A stretch of DNA of 23,146 bases, from positions 1 through 23,146 of IMG/VR virus record IMGVR_UViG_3300037852_000027, one strand, 5' to 3'. Origin of the DNA: a virus. A model generated the notes under the pieces. The model worked only from the letters and a program-made list of their open reading frames with translations, made no database searches and was not told the DNA's origin. The position numbers were made by a program, and so were the translations under genes. How positions within the stretch are numbered: position 1 is the first letter of the stretch; every line of letters starts with the position of its first letter. Below are positions 5,306-19,145 of this stretch, in pieces.

Positions 5306-5956
5306 CTACGCCCAGGTGACCGTGCCGGTGATCCGACAGTCGATGCTGCGTCGCGCTATCGCATCGATGCCACCCGTGAGCGAGAACTTCTTGATAAACG
5401 CGTTGAACGACGCGGTCGGAGTCGTGCCGGACGGAAGGATCACCTTCATGCCGACGACCGTGCCAGCGGTGTAGTGCGACAGCACCGCCGCCTGCCCAGC
5501 ATCCCCGTTGTCGTGGTCGGCTTCGAATGTGAACTGGCCAAAATCCACCAAGCCGAGTGCGATCTCCTTGGCGCTGCTGGCGAGATTGGTCTTGTCCAGC
5601 TCCGTCGCGGATCCATCCAGCCCGGTGAAGGTGCGCGCGTTGCCGACCGTCGTATAGGAGGTCGCGGTCGCGTGTGCCGTGCCGGTCGTGATGGTCAGGC
5701 CGGTTGTGTCGATGGCGACCGCGTAGGTGTTCGTGGTCTTATAGATCACCGTTGCGGTCTTGCCGTTCAGGTGCGAGGCATCCGCCCCAGAGAAGTTCGA
5801 ATCGAACGTGATCGCGTCGCCGTTATTGAAGCCGTGCGCGGTCGATGCGATCACGGTCGGGTTTCCAACTGTGACGCCGGTCACGGCAACAGCACTACCG
5901 GTACCGGTTGCAATCTGAATCTGCGTGCCTTGTGCGCTGATTGCGGTGCTGGTCAT
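5306..5956 (-). CDS. Major tail tube protein with inserted FCCH/Ig-like domain
   Basis: This 216-aa protein lies just upstream of the tail chaperones, where the tube subunit belongs. The flanking parts look like a tube protein: TQIQIATGTG at the start, then LDKTNLASSAKEIALGLVDF and FEADHDNGD..Q in the middle, and F.AFIKKFSLTGGIDAI toward the end. Residues about 27-98 (VIASTAHGFNNGDAITFD, LNGK, NTYAV) match the small HGF..GD-type module often inserted in phage structural proteins and annotated as FCCH-like. It probably projects from the tube surface. A Shine-Dalgarno GGGGA lies upstream, after three 10-bp repeats. Confidence 0.87.
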   Translation of the reverse strand: MTSTAISAQGTQIQIATGTGSAVAVTGVTVGNPTVIASTAHGFNNGDAITFDSNFSGADASHLNGKTATVIYKTTNTYAVAIDTTGLTITTGTAHATATSYTTVGNARTFTGLDGSATELDKTNLASSAKEIALGLVDFGQFTFEADHDNGDAGQAAVLSHYTAGTVVGMKVILPSGTTPTASFNAFIKKFSLTGGIDAIARRSIDCRITGTVTWA

Positions 5957-6002: not shown

Positions 6003-6263
6003 TCAAAAGAAGTCCTGCCGTGTGATCGCGCGCCGAATGCACATCATGCCGATCTGCAGATGCGTGCGGCCGATGGTGAGCCAGCCAGCGTCAACCGCGT
6101 CGCCGTCCGCGCCGTGCTCTTGAACGAACCTGAGCAAGTGCCGCATATTGTTTTCCGCCGTCTGGCAGTGGGCCAGCTTTTCTGCCTGGTCGACGCTCAG
6201 CTGCTTGCGCTTCGCCTCGACCGCGAGCGAGGCCGGCGCGCCGTGGGTGTCTGCGCTGCTCAT
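6003..6263 (-). CDS. Acb2/Tad1-hairpin-like small protein, candidate anti-CBASS sponge
   Basis: This 86-aa protein has two probable helices (about 20-50 and 60-84) after a polar N-terminus. The second, GWLTIGRTHLQIGMMCIRRA, resembles the C-terminal helix of the Acb2/Tad1 hairpin family (W..I.RT.LQ.GFM...RA). Acb2 proteins are small phage sponges that bind cyclic nucleotides and block CBASS and related immunity. The first helix lacks the lysine/tyrosine-rich opening I associate with characterised Acb2, so assignment to the family is tentative and activity unknown. It lies between the DUF3168 and tail tube genes, with a Shine-Dalgarno GGAAGG. It could instead be a tail or unknown protein sharing the hairpin fold. 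Confidence 0.45.
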   Translation of the reverse strand: MSSADTHGAPASLAVEAKRKQLSVDQAEKLAHCQTAENNMRHLLRFVQEHGADGDAVDAGWLTIGRTHLQIGMMCIRRAITRQDFF

Positions 6264-6272
6264 CCTGCCTTC

Positions 6273-6629
6273 CTAGTCATAGTGCCAAATAGAGTAGTCC
6301 ATCATCACGCGATGCAGCCGCGTGTCCGATTCGTAAAAATCCTGTTCGCCCTGGCTGATGTTCTGGACGTTCCATCCAAGCATTGCCGATCGGACGGACG
6401 CAGCGGTCGCCTGCACGCTCGCATACGACTGCGACCAAACGTCGATCTGGATGCGCGAGTTATTGATCGGCGGGTTCCCGTTGCCGGCCAGGATATTCTC
6501 GACCTGCGAAATCAGTCGCTGATAGACGATGTACGGCAGCGCGCTGCCCTGCATTGCGATGTTCGGGTAGACCGGCACCGCCGGCAGCGCCGTCGTCAGC
6601 ATCGATTTCAGGTCTTCCTGAATCATCAT
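6273..6629 (-). CDS. Tail terminator / completion protein (DUF3168)
   Basis: This 118-aa protein fits DUF3168, related to the lambda gpU-type tail terminators that cap the tube and dock it to the head. Signatures are the short N-terminal helix with LKSMLTTALPAVPVYPNIA, LPYIVYQRL, INNSRIQIDVWSQSYA in the middle, and a C-terminal LHRVMMDYSIWHYD strand. Its ATG at 6629 overlaps the stop of the gp10-like gene (ATGA). Gene order gp10-like, DUF3168, tail tube is standard. Confidence 0.88.
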   Translation of the reverse strand: MMIQEDLKSMLTTALPAVPVYPNIAMQGSALPYIVYQRLISQVENILAGNGNPPINNSRIQIDVWSQSYASVQATAASVRSAMLGWNVQNISQGEQDFYESDTRLHRVMMDYSIWHYD

Positions 6630-7446: not shown

Positions 7447-8355
7447 TCAGAAGCTCAGCACGCGGAACGGGTCGAGCAGCCGGTCGACGTACGGCAGCAG
7501 TTCCAGCTTGCCGCGGTTCAGGATCGCGACCTCTTCGCGGCTCTCGTAGAGCGTGCCGATCCGCACCTTCATCCAGCGCTTGATGCCTTCCGGGACTACG
7601 CCGATGAAGATCTGCCCGGTCCCGGCCGTCGTCAGGTCGATTGCCATGCCTCCCGAAGTCAGCGAAAGCGTGTAGACGCCGCCGGCCGCCACGGACTGGA
7701 CGAAATAGTCCGTCATTGCGGCCAGCGGGGCCGGCAGAACGCCGTCGCTGTAGCAGGACAGGCGCGCCTGGTCGCCCACGGCGAGCGGCGTCCACATCGG
7801 GGCGGTGATCGTATTCGCGGTCGCATCGGCCGTTGCCGGAGCCGCGTACCCGGCCGTGAATTTGATCTGCACCGCGGCTTTGCGCATCTGAGTTTCCGGC
7901 CAGACCGTCCCGAACGCCGGCGTGATGCAGCACGGCGTCGAAAAGACCGTCAGATACTGGCTCGGGTCCAGCGTCTGCGGCGCGCCGGTCGGGTCGATGT
8001 AGGTGATTGATTCCACGATCAAAGTCGGCGGCAGCGGCAGGTAAATCTCGTATCCGGTCGCGCCGTCCGGACTCAGCACGGTCAGCGGGCCTGGATTCAC
8101 TCCCCATTGCGGGCCATACCAGTTCGCCGAGCCGACATTGAAGCCGGGGCGCGGAAATTGATCCATCAAGTAGGTCCAGCGCTGCGCGACCAGGGCGCGG
8201 CGCGTGATCGTCTCGGCGTCCTGCCGCGCGCCGGTGATCAGGCCCGATATCAGGTTATCGTCGAATGTCTCCAGCTGGCGAACCTGTTGCCTGGCCTCGG
8301 AAACCTGGATAGGCTCCGCGTTGGCGTCGGTGCGCTGGATCAGGTACTCGCGCAT
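7447..8355 (-). CDS. Head-tail connector (gp6-like) with inserted module
   Basis: This 302-aa protein is an adaptor that docks to the portal. N-terminal ISGLITGARQDAETITRRAL (residues about 36-55), LPLPP..VESITYID, and LDPSQYL are family features. Related proteins are roughly 190-230 aa. Here, between AGY (168-170) and VPEGIKRWMKVRIGTLYESRE (from 254), there is an extra module of about 80 residues with LAVGDQARL, LPAPLAAMTDYFV and TLSLTSGG. Such GD/LP-type modules are common surface insertions in phage structural proteins. A Shine-Dalgarno GGAAG precedes the ATG; the start overlaps the upstream gene by 16 nt. Confidence 0.87.
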   Translation of the reverse strand: MREYLIQRTDANAEPIQVSEARQQVRQLETFDDNLISGLITGARQDAETITRRALVAQRWTYLMDQFPRPGFNVGSANWYGPQWGVNPGPLTVLSPDGATGYEIYLPLPPTLIVESITYIDPTGAPQTLDPSQYLTVFSTPCCITPAFGTVWPETQMRKAAVQIKFTAGYAAPATADATANTITAPMWTPLAVGDQARLSCYSDGVLPAPLAAMTDYFVQSVAAGGVYTLSLTSGGMAIDLTTAGTGQIFIGVVPEGIKRWMKVRIGTLYESREEVAILNRGKLELLPYVDRLLDPFRVLSF

Positions 8356-9074
8356 GCGTGCACTTCCCGCATCAGCCCGTTCGGGTGCGCGCTATGGTCG
8401 TATGCCGCCTCGACCGCTTCCGCCGTCGGCACGCGACCGTGCTCCTTCATCCTGACGGCGGTAACGGCTCGCCCAGCGCTGTCCCACTGGATATCCACAT
8501 CGACGAAGTCGTACCCGTACAGGCGCTGCGCGGGCGGATACATGGCATCCATCAGCGTCGTCTCTTTCGGCATCGCCAGCACGATCCCGCGGGAGGCTGC
8601 CACGCCGAGCCAGAACTCGACGCAGGCGCGCCCCTTCTCGGCGTCGTGCGCGTCCGGATAGGTGAAGTCCATCCCGAAAAGGCTGATCTTCGTCGCGCCC
8701 CGGATGATCGCGTAGGCCACGGCGTAAGCCGCAGTCGAATTGAAGTAGCCGCCCGGTACCGCCTTCAGGGCCTCTTCGAGCGGAAACTCGACCAGCCCCG
8801 GAAAGTCCGGATGCGCGATGCTCGTCATGATCGGCCCCGGATGCACCTTCAGCCATGCGAGCATCGCCGCGATATGCGAATCCGGATCCGCCGCGGCCCG
8901 GATCTGCTGCGTGCGAACGTCGTCCATGTGGAATATCAGATCGTTCTCCAGGATCGAGCCGAACGCGTTGATCACCCAGGTCTGATCGCAGTACTTGTGC
9001 CGGCCGCCCAGCCCACGGCAAAAGTCCATGTACCGAACCGCGGTTGGCCCAAGGCCGACGATCGAAACGTGCAT
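8340..9074 (-). CDS. Rossmann-like protein, possibly MptE/DUF115-like
   Basis: This 244-aa protein is not structural in appearance. The N-terminus HVSIVGLGPTAVRYMDFC resembles a nucleotide-binding Rossmann loop, with later D-containing strands (DQTWVINAF, DLIFHMDDVR). Further on are GYFNSTAAYAVAYAI, ISLFGMDFTYP, KGRACVEFWLG, RGIVLAMPKET and LYGYDFVD. These features recall DUF115/MptE-like proteins, some of which work in glycan modification; this is uncertain and no catalytic role is shown. It has a Shine-Dalgarno GGAGC and lies between the decoration-like gene and the connector, preceded by a stable hairpin. Confidence 0.55.
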   Translation of the reverse strand: MHVSIVGLGPTAVRYMDFCRGLGGRHKYCDQTWVINAFGSILENDLIFHMDDVRTQQIRAAADPDSHIAAMLAWLKVHPGPIMTSIAHPDFPGLVEFPLEEALKAVPGGYFNSTAAYAVAYAIIRGATKISLFGMDFTYPDAHDAEKGRACVEFWLGVAASRGIVLAMPKETTLMDAMYPPAQRLYGYDFVDVDIQWDSAGRAVTAVRMKEHGRVPTAEAVEAAYDHSAHPNGLMREVHACAST

Positions 9075-10904: not shown

Positions 10905-11645
10905 TCAGGTCCCCCGCAGCAGGATCGCCCTGCGCTGGAGTGCCGCAACTGCCTGCTTGACTTCACCGTCGGTCGCAGAATCGCTCTGCCCGAACGACAT
11001 CACCCGCGAGATAAACGCGGTTGCCTCGGAGCGCGAGAAGCCTGCAGCATCGCGCAGCAGCTTCTCGGCGCTCTTTAAATCCGCAAAGTCGATTGATTTC
11101 ACCGACGAAACCGTGGCCATCGCGTTGGCCGGGAACGTCACCGGGGATACCTCGAGCAGTTTCACGGCATTCAGGGTCCGGCGCGGCTCGTTTTCCTTGG
11201 TGCCGCGGACGAATTCCTTGGCTTGGAAGCCGATCGAAAGGCCGTCCATCGCGTTTTCCTTCATCGCGCCGTAGATCGTTTTACCCTTCTCGGTGTCCAG
11301 GTTGATCAGGCGCCCCTTCGCGTGCAGGCCGTGGCTGTCCTCGTTCATCGAGGTCCACTTGCCAATCGGCAGCATGTCCTCGGGCGACGGCGACGAGAAG
11401 AAGCTGCCCATACCGCCGTGATTGAGCAGCATCTTGGGCATCGTGCCGGCCTTGTCGTGGTCCGCGAGCGTCTGCTTGAACGCGCCCGGCATCATCATGT
11501 CGCCGTAATCGTCCTCGTTGTTAAAGACGCTGGCGTACCCCTCGAAGCTGCCTTTCGCGGCCGATCCGACCTCGGCGAAGCGGTATTCGAAGCGCGCGCC
11601 CTTGAATTCGAGTTCCGACTCGCTGCTTTTCTGCTTGACGCCCAT
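10905..11645 (-). CDS. HK97-type prohead protease (U35)
   Basis: This 246-aa protein is the maturation serine protease that cleaves the capsid delta domain. GSFEGYASVFNNEDDYGD and PGAFKQTL open the domain. The likely catalytic His is H76 in LLNH, the Ser is S137 in LSIGF, and the third residue lies near E165 in LLEVSPVTFPAN. The C-terminal part (about 185-246) is charged and helical and may be an autocleaved scaffold-like tail. A Shine-Dalgarno AAGG precedes the ATG at 11645. The capsid gene follows by 40 nt. Immediately upstream is the long repeat protein rather than the portal, which is unusual. Confidence 0.93.
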   Translation of the reverse strand: MGVKQKSSESELEFKGARFEYRFAEVGSAAKGSFEGYASVFNNEDDYGDMMMPGAFKQTLADHDKAGTMPKMLLNHGGMGSFFSSPSPEDMLPIGKWTSMNEDSHGLHAKGRLINLDTEKGKTIYGAMKENAMDGLSIGFQAKEFVRGTKENEPRRTLNAVKLLEVSPVTFPANAMATVSSVKSIDFADLKSAEKLLRDAAGFSRSEATAFISRVMSFGQSDSATDGEVKQAVAALQRRAILLRGT

Positions 11646-11651
11646 CGCGGA

Positions 11652-14504
11652 TCACCTTTTCGTCAGAGTGCTGAGCAGGGTGGCCAGGATGGCGCCCCGC
11701 TTGCGGTTGGTGGGAATGCGATTGTCGATTTGCGCGAAAGCGATGGCCTCTGAGGCGCGCGTCTCGCCGCTGGCCTGACCCGTGACGGGCAGGATCTCGA
11801 CTGTGCCGACGCCGTAGGCGCTCTGCGGGGCATTGGAGCTCGAAGATTGACCGGTGACATCGTAAACCTCGTCTAAGTACTCGGCTAGTCTCGGTTTTGG
11901 CTCAACGGCCGGCTTCGGCCGGAAGTAGCTCGGGAAGTACCGGCCGCCTCCGCCCCCCAATATCTGGGCGACGCGATGCGCTACGGCCCCAAGGGTTGCG
12001 ACCGAGGCCTGGACGGCGGCGAGCGCCATCTGATGCGTTTCGACCGCCGCCGTGGCCACAGAAGCCGCCGCAGTCGAGGCGACCGTTACCAGGCGGCCGG
12101 CCGATTTGCCGATCTGTGCGCTGGCGCTCACGGTCGCGGACCGAGCCGCGCCGATGACCCGCAGGACGGTCGAGGTCGCCGCAGCAACCGCGGATTGGGC
12201 CGACGCGACCGCCTTGGACAGCGAGATCACCGAGCCGATCGAGGCGACCAGCGTCATCAGGTGCGGAGTCTGTTCCGCCAGCGTGGCAATCACGCCCTGT
12301 GTAACCGACCGCACAAAGGCGACAGCGTTTGCCAGCGTGGCGGCCGTGGTCTGCCCTACGACTTTGGTCGTAATCGCAACCTTGGACGCCGTTGCGGAGA
12401 TTGCCTGCGTAATGGTACGTGCCGTGTTTACGGTAGATTGCAACGTCGAAACCTGCGTGGCCGCCAAGGAAAACTGACGCTCAGCAATCCTGGACAAAGC
12501 GCCGGCCGTGCCCTGGACGATGGTAAGCGCACGCTGCGCCGTCGCTGTTCGGACTGCGACGGTAGCCTGCGCTGCAGTTCGAGCTATCTGGACGGCCCGG
12601 GCCAGCGTCGATGAGGCCGCGACCGAAGCGACCAGCGTGAGCAGTTCGGCTTTGATCGCCGCGAGCGCGGCCGAGGTTGCCTGACTCGCACTGCGCACCC
12701 AGCCGGTCAGTTTCCCGACCACTGCGCTGGAGGCTTGCCCAGCCGAACGAACCGCACCGACCAGCCGCGGCAAGGTCGCGGCCGTGCCCACCATCACGGC
12801 CAGGTGAACGAACGCGCTGTGGAAGCTCTGAAGGCTCGCTGCGGTCGTCTGAGCGACGCTTGCGAGCCGGGCAGCAATTTTACCGACAGTGGCCGCGGTT
12901 GTCTGTGCGGCGGACCGCGTCGTCGATACCGCCCGCCTCAAGCTGATTCCGGATCCCTGCGCGATCTGGAACGCCGAGCGCGCCGTGACCCTCTGAACGG
13001 TCAGCGCGCCGGCCTGGGCGGCGCTGCGGACCGCCCCGATCAGCCGGGAGGGGAGTGTAGCGACCGTGGCCTGTGTGATGGACTTGGCGACCAGCACAGA
13101 ACGCGCCAAGGCGCTGCTTGACGCTGCTGTCGCGGTCAGCGTGCGCAGAGCGGCCCGTATTCGCGCCAGCGTAACCGTCGAGCCTTGCGAGACAGTCCGG
13201 ATCGCCTGCACCGATCGCGGCAGGCTCAGCGACTCGGCCTGACCTGCCGACATGATGCGCTCGCCCATCTTCACCAGAATCGACGCACTCGCCTGGCTGA
13301 CCGACCTGGACGCGAGCGCCGACTTGATGACCGCGCCTGCAGATGCCTGCGACAGCGACAGCGGATGGCCGACGAGCTTCTGAATCAGCGCGCTTGATGC
13401 CTGCGTTGCCGATCTGGCCGCCGACACCGCGCGGGCAATCGAGGTCGCGGTCGCCTGACTGACTGATCGGATTGCACCTACCACGCGGCCTGGCAGCGTG
13501 GCGACCGTTGCCTGCGTTGTGCTATAGGTTCTCGGAAGAGACCTAAAAAGCGTTGCCGCGCTGGACTGCGATACGGCCGACAGGGCGCTGCTTACTACGG
13601 TCTTGATCGCCGTCGCAATCGACGGCTGAGCGATCGATTTCGTAACCGCGGCAGCGCGCGGCAGGGACAGCGCTTCGGATTGCGTCACCGAGCGGATTGC
13701 GCCGACATTCGTCTGGCCCATCGCCGCGGCGGAAGCCTGAGAAGCGCTCAAAGGTTGCGTGTACTGAACACCGGAAACGGAAATAAACCCGAGCGGCCTG
13801 GCGAATCTCTCCCCGTAGAACGGATGCGTTCGAAGGGCTTTGGGCGGAACGGCCGGTATCTGCTGATCGCCCGCGACACGGCCATATCCGGCTGGCGCTA
13901 GCAGCAGCGCCACGTCGAAACAAGGACGGCCGGTACCAATCGTGAACGCGTCTTGAATCGTGGCAACGGTTACGTTGTCTTGAGACTGGGCTGACCACCC
14001 AACGGCGCTGCCGCTATTTCGTAGGGTCCACCCTGTTCCGGCTGTCCATGAGTTACCCAGGCCAGATGAGGCCTGCTCCATGATCGCGAGCGCATCGCAC
14101 CCAGTAATCGATGGCCGCAGGAATGACAGCGTTTGCGAGGTCGTTGCTCCTCCAGAAGTTGAAGTTATGAAATCCACGGGCGATACAGAGCGCCCGCTAA
14201 ACCCGATGAACAACGTACCACCAAGAGAGGTGTTACCGACTGTGACCGTAGCCGTCATACTAGTTGTGACGGTCGGATTGTTACAGACGAACACGTATAT
14301 AAAACTGTTGGTGGTGTGCTGGACCAACATGAGTTGGTACACATTACCACTGCTGTCGCTACACTTGAGTGAATTGGGAGTTACGTTCAAACCCAAGCCA
14401 ACGATGACCAAGCAGTTCGCATTGCCAGTCTGCATATCAACCGCAGCGGTCGTCTGGGATGCCGCTCCGGTTGTGGTTACTGCTGCGGAATTGACGTATG
14501 CCAT
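11652..14504 (-). CDS. Large Ala/Ser/Thr-rich 18-residue-repeat protein
   Basis: This 950-aa protein is not recognised as a whole. Residues about 1-205 are a beta-rich domain (CLVIVGLGLNVTP, DSSGNVYQL, GTLFIGFSG) like modules often seen in phage structural proteins. Residues about 253-847 are 30 or more repeats of about 18 residues built on S-x-x-Q-A-x-x-A-x-L-x-R. This part carries dozens of Arg/Lys, only a few Glu, and no Asp that I can see. The last 103 residues follow a GGGGG hinge and are Pro/Ser-rich. An 18-residue period equals five alpha-helical turns, so a long rod is plausible. It could be a head fibre or a DNA-contacting internal head protein; I cannot decide. Confidence 0.8.
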   Translation of the reverse strand: MAYVNSAAVTTTGAASQTTAAVDMQTGNANCLVIVGLGLNVTPNSLKCSDSSGNVYQLMLVQHTTNSFIYVFVCNNPTVTTSMTATVTVGNTSLGGTLFIGFSGRSVSPVDFITSTSGGATTSQTLSFLRPSITGCDALAIMEQASSGLGNSWTAGTGWTLRNSGSAVGWSAQSQDNVTVATIQDAFTIGTGRPCFDVALLLAPAGYGRVAGDQQIPAVPPKALRTHPFYGERFARPLGFISVSGVQYTQPLSASQASAAAMGQTNVGAIRSVTQSEALSLPRAAAVTKSIAQPSIATAIKTVVSSALSAVSQSSAATLFRSLPRTYSTTQATVATLPGRVVGAIRSVSQATATSIARAVSAARSATQASSALIQKLVGHPLSLSQASAGAVIKSALASRSVSQASASILVKMGERIMSAGQAESLSLPRSVQAIRTVSQGSTVTLARIRAALRTLTATAASSSALARSVLVAKSITQATVATLPSRLIGAVRSAAQAGALTVQRVTARSAFQIAQGSGISLRRAVSTTRSAAQTTAATVGKIAARLASVAQTTAASLQSFHSAFVHLAVMVGTAATLPRLVGAVRSAGQASSAVVGKLTGWVRSASQATSAALAAIKAELLTLVASVAASSTLARAVQIARTAAQATVAVRTATAQRALTIVQGTAGALSRIAERQFSLAATQVSTLQSTVNTARTITQAISATASKVAITTKVVGQTTAATLANAVAFVRSVTQGVIATLAEQTPHLMTLVASIGSVISLSKAVASAQSAVAAATSTVLRVIGAARSATVSASAQIGKSAGRLVTVASTAAASVATAAVETHQMALAAVQASVATLGAVAHRVAQILGGGGGRYFPSYFRPKPAVEPKPRLAEYLDEVYDVTGQSSSSNAPQSAYGVGTVEILPVTGQASGETRASEAIAFAQIDNRIPTNRKRGAILATLLSTLTKR
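11964..13748 (-). repeat. 54-bp (18-codon) degenerate repeat array
   Basis: The array encodes residues about 253-847 of the 950-aa protein. The spacing between successive conserved Gln codons is mostly 18, occasionally 19 or 20, across about 32 units. Units are diverged at DNA level, with protein-level conservation of Gln, Ala and one or two Arg/Lys per unit. This suggests an old expansion under selection for the protein pattern. Confidence 0.8.
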
Positions 14505-14511
14505 GCGATCA

Positions 14512-14532
14512 GCCTTTCATCTTGAGAAAGGC
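14512..14532 (-). promoter_or_regulatory. Hairpin occluding the Shine-Dalgarno of the repeat-protein gene
   Basis: On the minus-strand RNA, GCCUUUC pairs with GAAAGGC (7 bp, loop UCAAGAU). The GAAAGG half is the only good Shine-Dalgarno for the ATG at 14504, 8 nt away. Initiation of the long repeat gene is therefore probably reduced unless ribosomes from the 181-aa gene open the stem. Confidence 0.5.
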
Positions 14533-14551
14533 GCGCATCTCATGCGCTCGC

Positions 14552-15097
14552 TCAGTTGAGCGATTCGAGCAGGTATTGATGAAGCGTGATCGTGTTGCCG
14601 GCCGTGTTGATTGACCAAGTGACCTGAAGATCAACGGTCGCGGCAGCCGCCGAGTTGAAACCTGTGCCGACTGCTGGCGCCGTGGCCGGGATCATGTTGT
14701 TCAAGTTGGTGGCCGATACCAGCGAACTGACAAAGTTGCCGGTGTGTATGAAGTCGGCCGCCGTTCCGTCTCCTACCGCACGAAGCGTCAGCAGCCAATC
14801 AAGCATCCAGGTCAGGTTGGTCTGAGATGCTATGCCGACGAAGGTAGGACTCGCAGCAACATTGACCGCGCCGATTACGAAGTTGAACGTGATATTGTTC
14901 GTGCCGGTGGTGGTGCTGATGCGGCCGGAAGCTTTCAGGCGCAGCATCTGCCCCGGATAGATGAAGAAGCCGCCCGGCATCGCCCACTTGCCGGTCGCTG
15001 CGGTTGAGGTCAGCAGCGAGGTCGGCGTCGTGGTCGCAGCAACCGCCGTGCCATCGCCAGCCGCCCACGCAAGAGGGCCTACGTATGGGGAGAGCAT
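14552..15097 (-). CDS. Beta-rich phage structural protein
   Basis: This 181-aa protein is unrecognised by function. It shows the pattern GDGTAVAATTTPTSLL at the start, MPGGFFIYPGQMLRLKASGRIS with TTTGTNNITFNFVIG in the middle, and a late VDLQVTWSINTAGNTITLHQ. This matches a jelly-roll-like beta sandwich profile found in many tailed-phage virion proteins. No signal peptide or membrane segment is seen. It lies between the 212-aa structural-type gene and the long repeat protein. I infer a virion accessory or fibre subunit. The Shine-Dalgarno is weak, so coupling to the upstream gene is likely. Confidence 0.65.
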   Translation of the reverse strand: MLSPYVGPLAWAAGDGTAVAATTTPTSLLTSTAATGKWAMPGGFFIYPGQMLRLKASGRISTTTGTNNITFNFVIGAVNVAASPTFVGIASQTNLTWMLDWLLTLRAVGDGTAADFIHTGNFVSSLVSATNLNNMIPATAPAVGTGFNSAAAATVDLQVTWSINTAGNTITLHQYLLESLN

Positions 15098-15106
15098 CGG
15101 CGCGGC

Positions 15107-15745
15107 TTACGTGAACTGTATTTTCGCGGTGAACTGGATGGAATCGCTTGTATTCAAATTGATAACCGCGAAGTCCGCATGCACGAACATCGAGCCGCCC
15201 GTGGTGGCCGTCGTTCCCGGAATGTTGCCCGGCGTGACCACGTCCGCGGCGGCAATGGTGGCAATTGCACTCGATCCGTTAGCACCGCGCACCACGGTCA
15301 GCGCGGTCGTTCCGCTGCCGGCCGTGACTTGCATGACCTCGGTGCGGATCTGGATGTAATTATTGCCCGGCGTGAAGGTCGCCGCCGTGTTCAGCGTCGT
15401 TGAGACCGCCGAACCGACGACTCCGCCTGCCGCAACTGCTGCGACCGACGGCTGCGTGGTGGAATCAAACGCTCCAAATTCTGTAATCGCTCGGCTTCCT
15501 GCTGCCGTAATCGTTCCAACAACTTGGTACGTGTCATTTGGGTTGGTGGTGGTGACTTGAGAAGAGGTGCCGGTGACGCGCGCCTCGCTCGACTCGTCGA
15601 ACATGGCAACGTCTGTTGCGGCAGCGGTGAGGCCCGCGGGGTTCAGTCCCCACGTGACGACCTTCGGCTCGGCCTGCGTCGGGGTCGATCCGATCAATCG
15701 GCCTGAGAGAATGTCCTTGCCTTTCCGCGTTACGACCGTGGCCAT
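15107..15745 (-). CDS. Phage structural / fibre-like protein with inserted module
   Basis: This 212-aa protein opens TRKGKDILSGRLIG and has PKVVTWGLNP, NDTYQVVGTITAAG and AITEFGAFDSTTQP, a pattern seen in phage fibre or head accessory proteins. Residues about 127-172 contain NNYIQIRTEVMQVTAGSGTT and LTVVRGANGSS, a small repeat-type module common in phage structural proteins that appears inserted before the final strands (HADFAVINLNTSDSIQFTAKI). The Shine-Dalgarno AAGGA precedes the ATG. The role is inferred only from this similarity and from neighbours. Confidence 0.65.
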   Translation of the reverse strand: MATVVTRKGKDILSGRLIGSTPTQAEPKVVTWGLNPAGLTAAATDVAMFDESSEARVTGTSSQVTTTNPNDTYQVVGTITAAGSRAITEFGAFDSTTQPSVAAVAAGGVVGSAVSTTLNTAATFTPGNNYIQIRTEVMQVTAGSGTTALTVVRGANGSSAIATIAAADVVTPGNIPGTTATTGGSMFVHADFAVINLNTSDSIQFTAKIQFT

Positions 15746-15749
15746 TGCG

Positions 15750-15926
15750 TTATTCCTTCACAGGATGGAAGCGGCCCCGAATGCCTCGGGCTAAGCGCGC
15801 CCACAGTCGGCGCAGCGGATTGCGGTGCCAGTAGGCGACCGTGCCCAATTCCTCGCGGCTGCCGTCGGCGCGGATGATCGTGGCTTCGAGGCGCATCGAC
15901 TGGACCTGGCGCGCGTGCTGCTCCAT
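15750..15926 (-). CDS. Small basic protein, unknown
   Basis: This 58-aa protein is unrecognised. The core RLEATIIRADGSREELGTVA is beta-like, and the C-terminus HRNPLRRLWARLARGIRGRF is a basic amphipathic helix. I start it at the ATG at 15926, which follows the upstream stop by 5 nt and has a Shine-Dalgarno (GAGGT, about 8 nt). An upstream ATG at 16016 would give 88 aa, but it would overlap the four-cysteine gene over most of its added length. The basic helix might bind membranes or nucleic acid; this is not shown. Confidence 0.6.
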   Translation of the reverse strand: MEQHARQVQSMRLEATIIRADGSREELGTVAYWHRNPLRRLWARLARGIRGRFHPVKE

Positions 15927-15931
15927 CGAGC

Positions 15932-16165
15932 TTACCTCAGGATGACGGCGGCGGATTTGCCCGCGCCGTTGGCGGCGATCTGCTGCGGATCGATCTCGTG
16001 TTCGCCGCACCACCAATCGGACCGCACGGGCGGAAACGACGCGACCGGGGCCGGCGCGCCGCTGCCTTTCGGATCCGGGATAGCGACGTAGATGGTCGGG
16101 GCGCGGCGGCGGCAGGCGACCTGCAGCGCGGAGAAGAATCGGCAGGTCTGGCAGGTCCCGGTCAT
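15932..16165 (-). CDS. Four-cysteine small protein, putative metal-binding
   Basis: This 77-aa protein has C5 and C8 (CQTC), C18, and C53 in DWWCGEHE. The order C-x2-C-x9-C, a long spacer and then a PPV..DWWCGEHE end is a family pattern seen in short phage proteins. Four cysteines fit one zinc or Fe-S site. The ATG at 16165 overlaps the stop of the secreted 121-aa gene (TGATG). No function is known; it belongs to the accessory block between portal and protease. Confidence 0.65.
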   Translation of the reverse strand: MTGTCQTCRFFSALQVACRRRAPTIYVAIPDPKGSGAPAPVASFPPVRSDWWCGEHEIDPQQIAANGAGKSAAVILR

Positions 16166-16530
16166 CAGTTCACGCTCAAGTCGCCGGATTTCGGGTCAAG
16201 GTGGCACGTGTAGCCCCTGCCGCCGCTGTGCAAGACTTCCCAATCCTGCGCGTAGGCGGCCGTTGCAGTGCCGGCCGTCAATGTGCCGGTCATCGCCCAG
16301 CCAAAGAAGTAAGAGCCGTACGGACCTTGAGCGTTGATGATCTTGGTCGTGACCGGGCCGCTGAACGTCATCCCGTTCACGACAGCCTTGATCACGGGAG
16401 AAGAGAACGAGCACGCATTGCCGACGTAGGAGATCGTTACGACGACGGCCGCGTTCGGCAGCGGATAGTCGGTCGCCGCGGATGCGGTGCTCAGCATCAG
16501 GGTGAGGAGGAGCAGCGAAGGGATTTTCAT
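16165..16530 (-). CDS. Secreted small protein with Sec signal peptide
   Basis: This 121-aa protein starts MKIPSLLLLTLMLSTASA, a clear Sec signal peptide with likely cleavage after ASA. The mature part, about 103 aa, is beta-rich with two cysteines (GNACSF and YTCHLD) that could form a disulphide in the periplasm. I start it at 16530, which has an upstream GGAGG, rather than at 16626; the longer form adds an Arg-rich stretch inconsistent with a signal peptide. A secreted protein among head genes suggests a host-facing job such as superinfection exclusion or lysogenic conversion, but nothing proves this. Confidence 0.7.
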   Translation of the reverse strand: MKIPSLLLLTLMLSTASAATDYPLPNAAVVVTISYVGNACSFSSPVIKAVVNGMTFSGPVTTKIINAQGPYGSYFFGWAMTGTLTAGTATAAYAQDWEVLHSGGRGYTCHLDPKSGDLSVN

Positions 16531-16555
16531 TTGGGCGGCCCTCCGCGGTTCGGAC

Positions 16556-16702
16556 TCAGAGCTTTTTGGCGATCTTGCTGGCCTCGTCGACGATCGCGGA
16601 TTGAATCGCCGGATGCGCCTTGCCATACATCAGCGCTAGCACTCCGACTATGCCGTGGGAAATGAGCAGCGCCACGACGATCGCAACGATTGACCAGGAC
16701 AT
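16556..16702 (-). CDS. 48-aa single-pass membrane peptide
   Basis: A small open frame encodes MSWSIVAIVVALLISHG followed by IVGVLALMYGKAHPAI and a charged end QSAIVDEASKIAKKL. Residues about 4-25 form one membrane segment and residues 30-48 an amphipathic helix. It sits 25 nt before the secreted gene and 55 nt after the 136-aa gene. No strong Shine-Dalgarno is visible, which lowers confidence. Holin-like or exclusion roles are possible but unsupported. Confidence 0.5.
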   Translation of the reverse strand: MSWSIVAIVVALLISHGIVGVLALMYGKAHPAIQSAIVDEASKIAKKL

Positions 16703-16757
16703 GGGGGCGCACGGTACGCGCAAAGGTCAATGCTGGCAAGGGGTTAGCGCGCATCCG

Positions 16758-17168
16758 TCACGCCTTGGGGACAACGTGAACGAAGCGCGAGACGGTCACC
16801 AGAGCGCCGGCTGCGATCTCGCACGTGCTAAGAGACAGGTTCGGAGCGGCGCTTTCCTGATCGGCCGTGCCGTCGAACACGGGCGTCTTCTGGTCGGCGC
16901 GATAGGTCCGAAACCAGGCCGCAGTGCCGGTCGCCTTGGCCTGGGCCGACGCAATGGCGTGAAACTTCACGACGCCGTCGGCTGCCGCATCGGCCGCGGG
17001 AGTTCCGAAGCGCAGCAGCGCGAGCGCCTTCTGGGAGTCGAGAGGCGCATCGGCGCTGGCCGGCTGCGCACCGCTGTAGATGCACAGGAAGCCGCCGTTC
17101 AAAAGAGCGGCAAGCGCATCGGCCTGCGCGTTGATCGCCGCACTACCCAGCTGTGTGTTCTTCGGCAT
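16758..17168 (-). CDS. Small virion-accessory-type protein
   Basis: This 136-aa protein begins MPKNTQLGSAAINAQADALA, then NGGFLCIYSGAQPASADAP, LLRFGTPAADAAADGV and GTAAWFRTYRADQ. This set of motifs defines a widespread small phage family of unknown function, usually among structural genes. It overlaps the portal gene by 26 nt and has no membrane or signal segment. I infer a virion accessory role from context only. Confidence 0.7.
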   Translation of the reverse strand: MPKNTQLGSAAINAQADALAALLNGGFLCIYSGAQPASADAPLDSQKALALLRFGTPAADAAADGVVKFHAIASAQAKATGTAAWFRTYRADQKTPVFDGTADQESAAPNLSLSTCEIAAGALVTVSRFVHVVPKA

Positions 17169-18642
17169 CGACGAACTCGGCTCCGATGACTTCTTTGTTC
17201 TCGTCGAACAGAAATTGGACGCGGCGCGGCTCGGCCTTGTCTATTTCCTTGGTCACGTGAATGGTGACGGGCGCGGGCTCAATGTTCACGCTCGGCCCGG
17301 ACGAGCTGTGAACGAGAGATAGGCGCCGCTCCATCGTCTGCATCGCGTCGGTGAGCTTGGCAACCGCCTCGTTCGGCTTTTCTTCGGGTGGGGGCGCCGC
17401 GGGCTCGGCGGCAGGCGCGGGCGTCTCGGGCTCCTTGCCGACCTCGATCATGTTCAACGGCATCAGCGGTTCATCCAGGTCGTCGATCGGATTCAGAACG
17501 ATGCCCAGGTTAGACTCGATCGAGCGCGCCTCATTGCGCGTGAGCCAGCCGTCCATGATGCCGTTGTGATAATAGGTTGAGCGCGCCGCCGCGTCGCCCC
17601 GCAGCATCATCGACACGTCGAACGCGGGATTCAGGTCCTTGCGTTCCGAGCGGACGATCAGGTCACGCCGGATCGCCTGCTCGATGCGCGTGAACCACGG
17701 CATCAGGCACGAGGTCACGAACTGCAACCCCAGTTGCTCTATGTTCGAGAACGTCGCCTTCTCAAGATCGTTGACCAGATGCGCCGGCACTCGGAAGACC
17801 GCGGCGATCTCGCTGCGCTGCATCTTGCGCGTCTCGAGGAATTGAGCGTCCTCCGGCGCGATCGAGATCTTGTTGAACTTGACGCCCTCCTCCAGTACGG
17901 CCGTCTCGTGCGAGTGCTCTCCCGAGGTCGAGCGGTCGAACGATTCCTTCAGTCGCTTGTAGGCCTCGTCACTCATCCTGGCCGGGTGCTCCAGCACGCC
18001 GCCCATCTTGGCGCCGTTGCGGAATAGCTGTCCGCCGAACTTCTCCGCTGCCAGGGCCAGGCCGATCGACTCGCGCGCGTAGGCGATCGGCGAGATGCCG
18101 AGCCAGCCGTTCAGCGACAGCCCGCGCACGTGGAAGATCTCGCCCGGGGCCATGTCCTTGAAACTGCCGTCCGGCATCGTGACCTGGTAGTTCAGCCGGA
18201 AGCCCGGCTGCATTGTCACGTTGATCATGTCCGGATGCAGCGGCAGCAACTCGGCTACATCGCCCGAGCGTGTGCGGTTGATCCACGCGTAGCCGTTGCC
18301 GCGCAGGCACAGGGATGCGACGATCATTTCCCAGAAATCGACCGCGCTTTGCCAGTCGTTCGGCTGCCAGCGCAGGATCTCGAACAGCGGGTGATCGGTC
18401 GCCGGGATCTGATTGCGGCCCTGCCAGCGATACAGCACGCACGGCAGCATTGCGATCGACTCGGCCAGCACCTTCACGCAGGCGTAGACGGTGGCCTGCT
18501 GCATCGCAGTCTGGGGATTGACGACGATTCCAGCCGACGACGCTCCGCCGCCGAAAGCCCACGCCAGATACCGCTCGAGCGTGCCCCAGTCCGGGGCCGT
18601 GCTCTTGGTCAGCCACCGCACCATGCGGTCGCGCAAGCCCAT
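17143..18642 (-). CDS. Portal protein (HK97 type)
   Basis: This 499-aa protein forms the DNA-entry ring at one capsid vertex. Signatures are TAMQQATVYACVKVLAESIAM near the N-terminus, GNGYAWINRTRSGDV, IFHVRGLSLNGWLGISPI, and EDAQFLETRKMQRSEIAAVF with FRVPAHLVNDLEKATFSNIEQ. I prefer the ATG at 18642, which overlaps the preceding stop as TGATG and has an upstream AGGTGG; a GTG at 18651 would add three residues. The C-terminal 100 residues are Pro/Glu/Ala-rich and poorly conserved. Normally the protease follows directly; here 5.5 kb of other genes intervene. Confidence 0.95.
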   Translation of the reverse strand: MGLRDRMVRWLTKSTAPDWGTLERYLAWAFGGGASSAGIVVNPQTAMQQATVYACVKVLAESIAMLPCVLYRWQGRNQIPATDHPLFEILRWQPNDWQSAVDFWEMIVASLCLRGNGYAWINRTRSGDVAELLPLHPDMINVTMQPGFRLNYQVTMPDGSFKDMAPGEIFHVRGLSLNGWLGISPIAYARESIGLALAAEKFGGQLFRNGAKMGGVLEHPARMSDEAYKRLKESFDRSTSGEHSHETAVLEEGVKFNKISIAPEDAQFLETRKMQRSEIAAVFRVPAHLVNDLEKATFSNIEQLGLQFVTSCLMPWFTRIEQAIRRDLIVRSERKDLNPAFDVSMMLRGDAAARSTYYHNGIMDGWLTRNEARSIESNLGIVLNPIDDLDEPLMPLNMIEVGKEPETPAPAAEPAAPPPEEKPNEAVAKLTDAMQTMERRLSLVHSSSGPSVNIEPAPVTIHVTKEIDKAEPRRVQFLFDENKEVIGAEFVDAEEHTAG

Positions 18643-19145
18643 CAGGCCCACCTGCGCGCGCGCACGGTACCGTAGGCGCCCAGCGTCGATATCGAGAAGG
18701 TCCCCTCGGCGTTAAGGTAGATCGTCGCGGGCGCAGCCAGGTTGAATCGCACCGTCGGCAACGCGCCTTCCAGGTTATTGGCGCCCAGCACGACGCCAGC
18801 AGCGGCCCACAGGCGCGTGTAGCCGTTGCCCGAGTCGATCTCGGCGGTGGTCGAGCTCAGGCTGGCCTGCACCGCCGTCAGGTTGGTGGTGGCGCCCGGC
18901 ACGAAGCCGACGTAGCCGGACACGTCCCAGTCTCCGGCCGACAGCGCGAGCGAGGCGACCTGCGAGGCCGCGCCCGTGCTGAGCGCGACGGGCGAGGCTG
19001 CCGCGACCACGGTCTGCTGGTATTCGCCGATCGAGCCGGCCTGCTCGCCGGCCATCGCGAACTTGCAGCCCGGCGTGCCGACGCCAAGCAGCGCCTCGAG
19101 CTGCTGCTTCTGCTGCGCGCGGATGCCTGCGTCTTCAGTGCCCAT
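18642..19145 (-). CDS. Beta-rich accessory virion-type protein
   Basis: This 167-aa protein lies between the large terminase and portal genes, an unusual place for a structural accessory. Residues 1-25 are polar and helical. From about residue 45 the sequence (VVAAASPVALSTGAASQVAS, LALSAGDWDVSGYVGF, TNLTAVQASLSSTT) matches a beta-sandwich profile found in fibre and decoration proteins (LtaGdWdVsg pattern). The Shine-Dalgarno AGGAGG, 5 nt before the ATG, is among the strongest in the window. Its stop overlaps the portal start, so the two are coupled. Confidence 0.68.
   Translation of the reverse strand: MGTEDAGIRAQQKQQLEALLGVGTPGCKFAMAGEQAGSIGEYQQTVVAAASPVALSTGAASQVASLALSAGDWDVSGYVGFVPGATTNLTAVQASLSSTTAEIDSGNGYTRLWAAAGVVLGANNLEGALPTVRFNLAAPATIYLNAEGTFSISTLGAYGTVRARRWA

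Follow-up and report, generated by a model that had tools for sequence, protein, structure and literature searches.

A small open reading frame lying between two tail genes of a siphophage raises the question whether its product is a part of the tail or, as an initial annotation had proposed from the sequence of one helix, a sponge for cyclic nucleotides related to Acb2 and Tad1. We compared the 86-aa protein with known families and structures, and the position of its gene with that in related phages.

An 86-codon gene in the tail operon

The ORF, taken from the ORF list and its translation, starts with ATG and reads from 6263 to 6003 on the minus strand of a 23 kb viral record, the full 23,146 nucleotides of which are termed the window. 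This record carries HK97-type packaging, head and tail operons on the minus strand, and the ORF is co-directional with the structural genes, in the order head closure, Neck1, tail terminator, Acb2-like ORF, major tail protein, tail assembly chaperone, tail protein and tape measure. Its assignment to the tail operon was thus correct. The relevant features are:

6003..6263, minus strand: Acb2-like gene, 86 codons plus stop (PF24729, E=9e-6; PHROG 717, E=1e-6; family HMM, E=6.8e-14)
6268..6273, minus strand: putative Shine-Dalgarno-like, purine-rich GGAAGG, read from the sequence, overlapping the tail terminator stop codon just 5' of the ATG
6114..6233, minus strand: residues 11–50, predicted short N-terminal helix (11–16) and first long helix (24–50), divergent (AlphaFold2 model, residue tally)
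6006..6089, minus strand: residues 59–86, predicted second long helix followed by the tail (..GWLTIGRTHLQIGMMCIRRAITRQDFF); this part is conserved as in Acb2
6273..6629, minus strand: tail terminator (Tail_completion_gp17), upstream neighbour (PF11367, E=2.3e-15; phrog_347)
5306..5956, minus strand: major tail (tube) protein, downstream neighbour (PF16460, E=7.9e-8; phrog_158)

A search for a promoter or terminator belonging to the Acb2-like gene itself found none, suggesting that it is expressed together with the structural genes and hence late in infection.

The ORF is a real gene under purifying selection, because a 98% identical copy (L002) occupies the same place between the same neighbours, tail terminator and major tail protein, and because of its dN/dS values, which are about 0.05 in the comparison with L002 and about 0.2 in those with the more distant relatives L003 and L010. 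Synonymous change exceeded amino-acid change in every comparison; for residues 60–86, dN relative to L003 is 0, though synonymous sites have changed. The window protein forms a branch with L002, L003/L004 (71% identity) and L010 (65%), carried by only three distinct phages. Two additional viral scans did not yield further members, and in the search for a host no relative was found by a genome scan with the clade or by one with the terminase.

Several other ORFs of the window stand out. About 5.5 kb of unusual genes lie between portal and prohead protease (10905–18651), among them that of a 950-aa repetitive protein (11652–14504) without a PHROG match. A tail-fibre-like ORF (18642–19145; phrog_11393, E=2.2e-12) is located between terminase and portal, and a 244-aa ORF between the major head protein and connector genes (8340–9074) matched nothing in Pfam, PHROG or PADLOC.

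Homology to Acb2 and predicted fold

The profile search against the Acb2/Tad1 hairpin family that had been suggested for this protein gave hits. PF24729 aligned over its positions 6–58 of 58, with a score of 26.2 bits which narrowly misses the curation threshold, being 0.8 bit short of the gathering cut-off of 27.0. PHROG 717, the second matching profile, is the family that holds T4 Vs.4/Acb2 and homologues (PMC10097602). An HMM built from 30 Acb2 relatives, without any member of the protein's own branch, scored the protein at 46.5 bits as its sole hit among the 415 stop-to-stop frames of the window, while the maximum reached by about 1,900 shuffles of the protein was 12.9 bits. Profile-profile comparison with the Acb2 family gave a probability of 98.8 over 64 columns (permuted-column controls, ≤11).

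Judged by these scores, the resemblance to Acb2 lies in the second helix. Residues 55–86 alone obtained 40.7 bits with the family HMM, whereas the N-terminal half obtained 1–3 bits, the level of the controls. This region includes the helix on which the proposal had been built (GWLTIGRTHLQIGMMCIRRA, residues 60–79), and its likeness to the Acb2/Tad1 helix is borne out. When sequences of the PDB were searched with the protein, Acb2 p26 came out on top (E=0.0014, residues 55–86), and the clade profile likewise placed Acb2 first (E=1.1e-4). Ankyrin hits in the former search are considered a designed-repeat look-alike around EHGAD, as they were not reproduced with the clade profile. A CARD domain hit (E=0.042, below the cut-off) is put down to chance similarity of helices; with the clade profile, CARD chains appeared only at E>1. 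Searches of PADLOC and NCBIfam gave no match.

The first helix had been described as divergent, perhaps marking a new branch, and this description holds: the N-terminal part lacks the GY motif, and in the tree the branch has 100/100 support and its stem is very long, at 5.4 changes per column, the deeper forks not being settled by this tree.

AlphaFold2 modelling with 35 family sequences predicted helices at residues 11–16, 24–50 and 59–81 (mean pLDDT 82), and a search of the PDB with this model returned Acb2 as the best match (probability 1.00, TM 0.66), followed by Vs.4. Since this prediction could have been steered by the canonical relatives, a second model was built with the four clade sequences as its sole input. 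It showed helices 11–19, 24–50 and 59–81 (pLDDT 80) and again retrieved Acb2 first (probability 1.00, TM about 0.64) and Vs.4 next, non-Acb2 chains scoring at most 0.41. For both models the Foldseek E-values of the Acb2 matches are weak (0.02–0.08) because the 86-aa chain is short and helical. Both models are of monomers, and as monomers they find their best PDB matches in the solved Acb2 chains. The published Acb2 protomer consists of one short N-terminal helix and two long antiparallel helices (PMC10419184; PMC12043709), a plan which the models of the 86-aa protein reproduce. Of the two-helix hairpin originally predicted, the hairpin itself is retained, but the fold is better described with an additional short N-terminal helix. 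Profile hits and an Acb2-like predicted structure, the two points on which the initial annotation had staked its proposal, were thus both obtained.

The closest solved structure by sequence and fold is Acb2 of the Pseudomonas phages PaMx33/PaP2 (p26; PDB 8h2j, 8h2x, 8ixz), which shares with the window protein the helix order, the second-helix pattern WLxIGxTxxQxGMMxIxRAI.. and the final Phe. The window branch differs from it in lacking the KIKGYR motif and in having Gln in place of the Pro of the tail. With T4 Vs.4 (PDB 7uq2) the protein has in common the membership in PHROG 717, the equivalents of T68 and R79, and small residues at the positions of A66 and A73. Tad1 resembles it in the two-helix hairpin domain (PF24729) but has an N-terminal beta-sheet domain (PMC12043709); membership in Tad1 was rejected, as the window protein has 86 aa and no beta domain, and no strands occur in either model. 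By homology the protein belongs to the PHROG 717 / Acb2-Tad1 hairpin superfamily, and it is almost certainly a divergent Acb2 homologue. Since two near-invariant ligand residues of the family are absent, it should not be named Acb2 in a functional sense.

The hairpin also occurs in a larger protein. ORF062 of Pseudomonas phage KPP23 (L009:2679–3578) codes for 300 aa and ends in an Acb2/Tad1 hairpin (PF24729, E=2.4e-9); the N-terminal part to which this hairpin is fused has no match in Pfam.

Position of the gene in related phages

In the window and in L002 the gene is packed closely between those of tail terminator and major tail protein, which would suit a tail protein with a structural or assembly role that shares the fold by chance. 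Conserved presence at this site was, however, not found. In six related contigs (L099–L103 and L105; tail terminator 64–79% identical) the tail terminator directly precedes the major tail protein with a gap of 41–63 nt. The site is also empty (44 nt gap) in G001, a 42 kb relative which contains L010 and whose tail tube and tail operon are 69% and 69–82% identical, respectively, to those of the window; its 65% identical copy of the gene is located at 41.5 kb, about 27 kb from the tail operon, and adjoins a gene homologous to the HNH gene that the window itself carries. The L003 copy sits between the portal/MuF gene and the prohead protease, so that L003/L004 carry their 71% identical version among head genes; the L003/L004 fragments showed no match to the tail tube of the window. 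The gene is therefore absent from phages with the same tail operon and present elsewhere in others, and a structural role in the tail, which we consider highly improbable, was rejected. The Acb2-like gene is an accessory insertion between two tail genes. Because the tail site of G001 is empty with a copy elsewhere, and because the L003 copy lies among head genes, the gene has moved, and its product has no fixed link to tails.

A position within structural operons is also common among known relatives. Acb2 homologues of Pseudomonas phage JBD67, Vibrio R19R, RcapMu and Leptolyngbya Lsp-JY19 are located inside head/tail operons, as are those of RcWaterboi, Vibrio 1.087.A, Shewanella 1/41 and Thiohalocapsa LS06-2018-MD04, while those of PaMx33 (in a replication cluster), T4 (in the vs region), B8b and HK639 are found elsewhere; these are the genome records examined, not a random sample. 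Copies on viral contigs have mixed neighbours, namely terminase, protease, head proteins, DNA polymerase and exonuclease. The special significance that had been attached to the tail position is thus not upheld. The occurrence of the same small gene at tail, head and pre-terminase sites indicates that exchangeable accessory genes of this type reside in structural operons. A sponge produced late is nevertheless plausible, since a mutation of the major capsid protein is reported to help an acb2-deleted phage to escape CBASS (PMC10419184).

Relatives of this tail operon carry other small ORFs in a further slot, located between the genes of Neck1 and the tail terminator, at L099:2426–2916, L103:2428–2682 and L105:2643–2894 (MSKMSVYDYMPLPEQ...), the ORF in L099 being accompanied by a diverged tandem copy. 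For the two L099 ORFs neither Pfam nor PADLOC gave a match, and PHROGs gave none for the first of them. These ORFs are candidate accessory genes.

Ligand residues and possible function

Residues were compared in an alignment of 76 sequences at positions which, according to PMC10097602, contact cGAMP in Vs.4 or take part in hexamer contacts. The cGAMP contacts of Vs.4 include Y8, H11, K23, F82 and R79 (PMC10097602); the first four are not conserved in the window protein. The positions of H11 and F82 are variable in the family as a whole and have no diagnostic value. The stacking Tyr (Y8 of Vs.4, Tyr11 of PaMx33), present in 68 of 70 other sequences and replaced by His in two (L011, L016), is K/Q/R in the branch; since the N-terminal alignment rests on weak similarity, this replacement is best read as the lack of a GY motif in the N-terminal part, which is directly visible in all four branch sequences. 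The homologues of JBD67, R19R, RcapMu and Lsp-JY19, by contrast, keep the canonical GY motif. The Lys of Vs.4 K23 (PaMx33 Lys26) is found in 66/70 others; the window protein has Q, L003 has K and L010 has D. The Arg preceding the Trp (PaMx33 Arg67), which may have a role in ligand binding, is conserved in 70/72 others and is G/G/A in the branch. Kept, on the other hand, are the Thr at the position of Vs.4 Thr68 (72/72 others), the cGAMP-contacting Arg (72/72; R78 of the window protein), small residues at the hexamer contacts (G65 and G72; G or A in all others) and the C-terminal aromatic residue.

The loss of Tyr, Lys and the Arg that precedes the Trp, together with the retention of Thr, the cGAMP-contacting Arg and the small interface residues, suggests that the branch probably prefers a ligand other than the dinucleotides to which Acb2 and Vs.4 bind. 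The idea of a simple cyclic-dinucleotide sponge is hence not sustained, as the near-invariant dinucleotide contacts of the family are missing from the branch. Published Acb2 homologues do differ in their binding spectrum (PMC12043709).

We favour, with moderate confidence, the interpretation that the gene is an accessory anti-defence cassette coding for a divergent Acb2 homologue that acts as an oligomeric signal sponge with an altered ligand. The 86-aa protein would most likely fold as an Acb2 protomer, its conserved second helix would build the oligomer, and the divergent N-terminal part would form a different pocket. Made late in infection, such a sponge could hold a nucleotide immune signal away from its effector, and CBASS-like or related effectors would consequently not be switched on. 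Several points speak against this interpretation. The N-terminal half, which contributes to the dinucleotide pocket, shows no detectable family similarity on its own, and the lost residues include the equivalent of Y8, mutation of which abolishes the cGAMP-dependent activity of Vs.4 (PMC10097602). The small number of phages with the branch, the Pfam score under the gathering cut-off and the weak Foldseek E-values count against it as well.

Two other interpretations of the protein were weighed. The protein might be an ordinary Acb2 which still binds cyclic dinucleotides, other residues having taken over the roles of Tyr and Lys. The same predicted fold, the retained R79 equivalent and C-terminal aromatic residue, and the Lys of L003 at the K23 position are compatible with this, but the near-invariance of Tyr and Lys in the rest of the family, set against K/Q/R and Q/K/D in the branch, and the effect of Y8A in Vs.4 make it quite improbable. 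We give a similarly low probability to an Acb2 derivative without nucleotide binding, which would instead act as an adaptor for proteins or enter other oligomers as a partner. In its favour, three near-invariant residues are lost on a long stem branch, and yet there is strong constraint on the second helix, from which the oligomer contacts are made; the equivalents of Thr68 and Arg79 remain, however, and no partner is known.

As to what may have driven an alteration of the ligand in the favoured oligomeric sponge, Panoptes punishes dinucleotide sponges, and tuning of specificity has been discussed as a way around it (PMC12657218). Panoptes as a reason for the residue change of the branch is speculation. 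The more specific proposal that an Acb2-fold branch without the dinucleotide pocket sequesters a signal not known for Acb2, and leaves the Panoptes-guarded dinucleotide pool unemptied, is tentative and in our estimate rather unlikely. Sponges are recognised by few ligand residues. A natural branch which keeps the scaffold while its near-invariant dinucleotide contacts are replaced puts directly to the test whether an Acb2 hexamer is adaptable to immune signals of other kinds, and whether phages retune sponges to escape guards such as Panoptes. As this branch falls under standard annotation thresholds, phage genomes may contain comparable branches that go unnoticed.

Another deviation from the canonical Acb2 pocket was observed in L011, L012 and L016: the Acb2-like proteins encoded there read PGHKVL where others have the GYR motif, with His in the place of the stacking Tyr.
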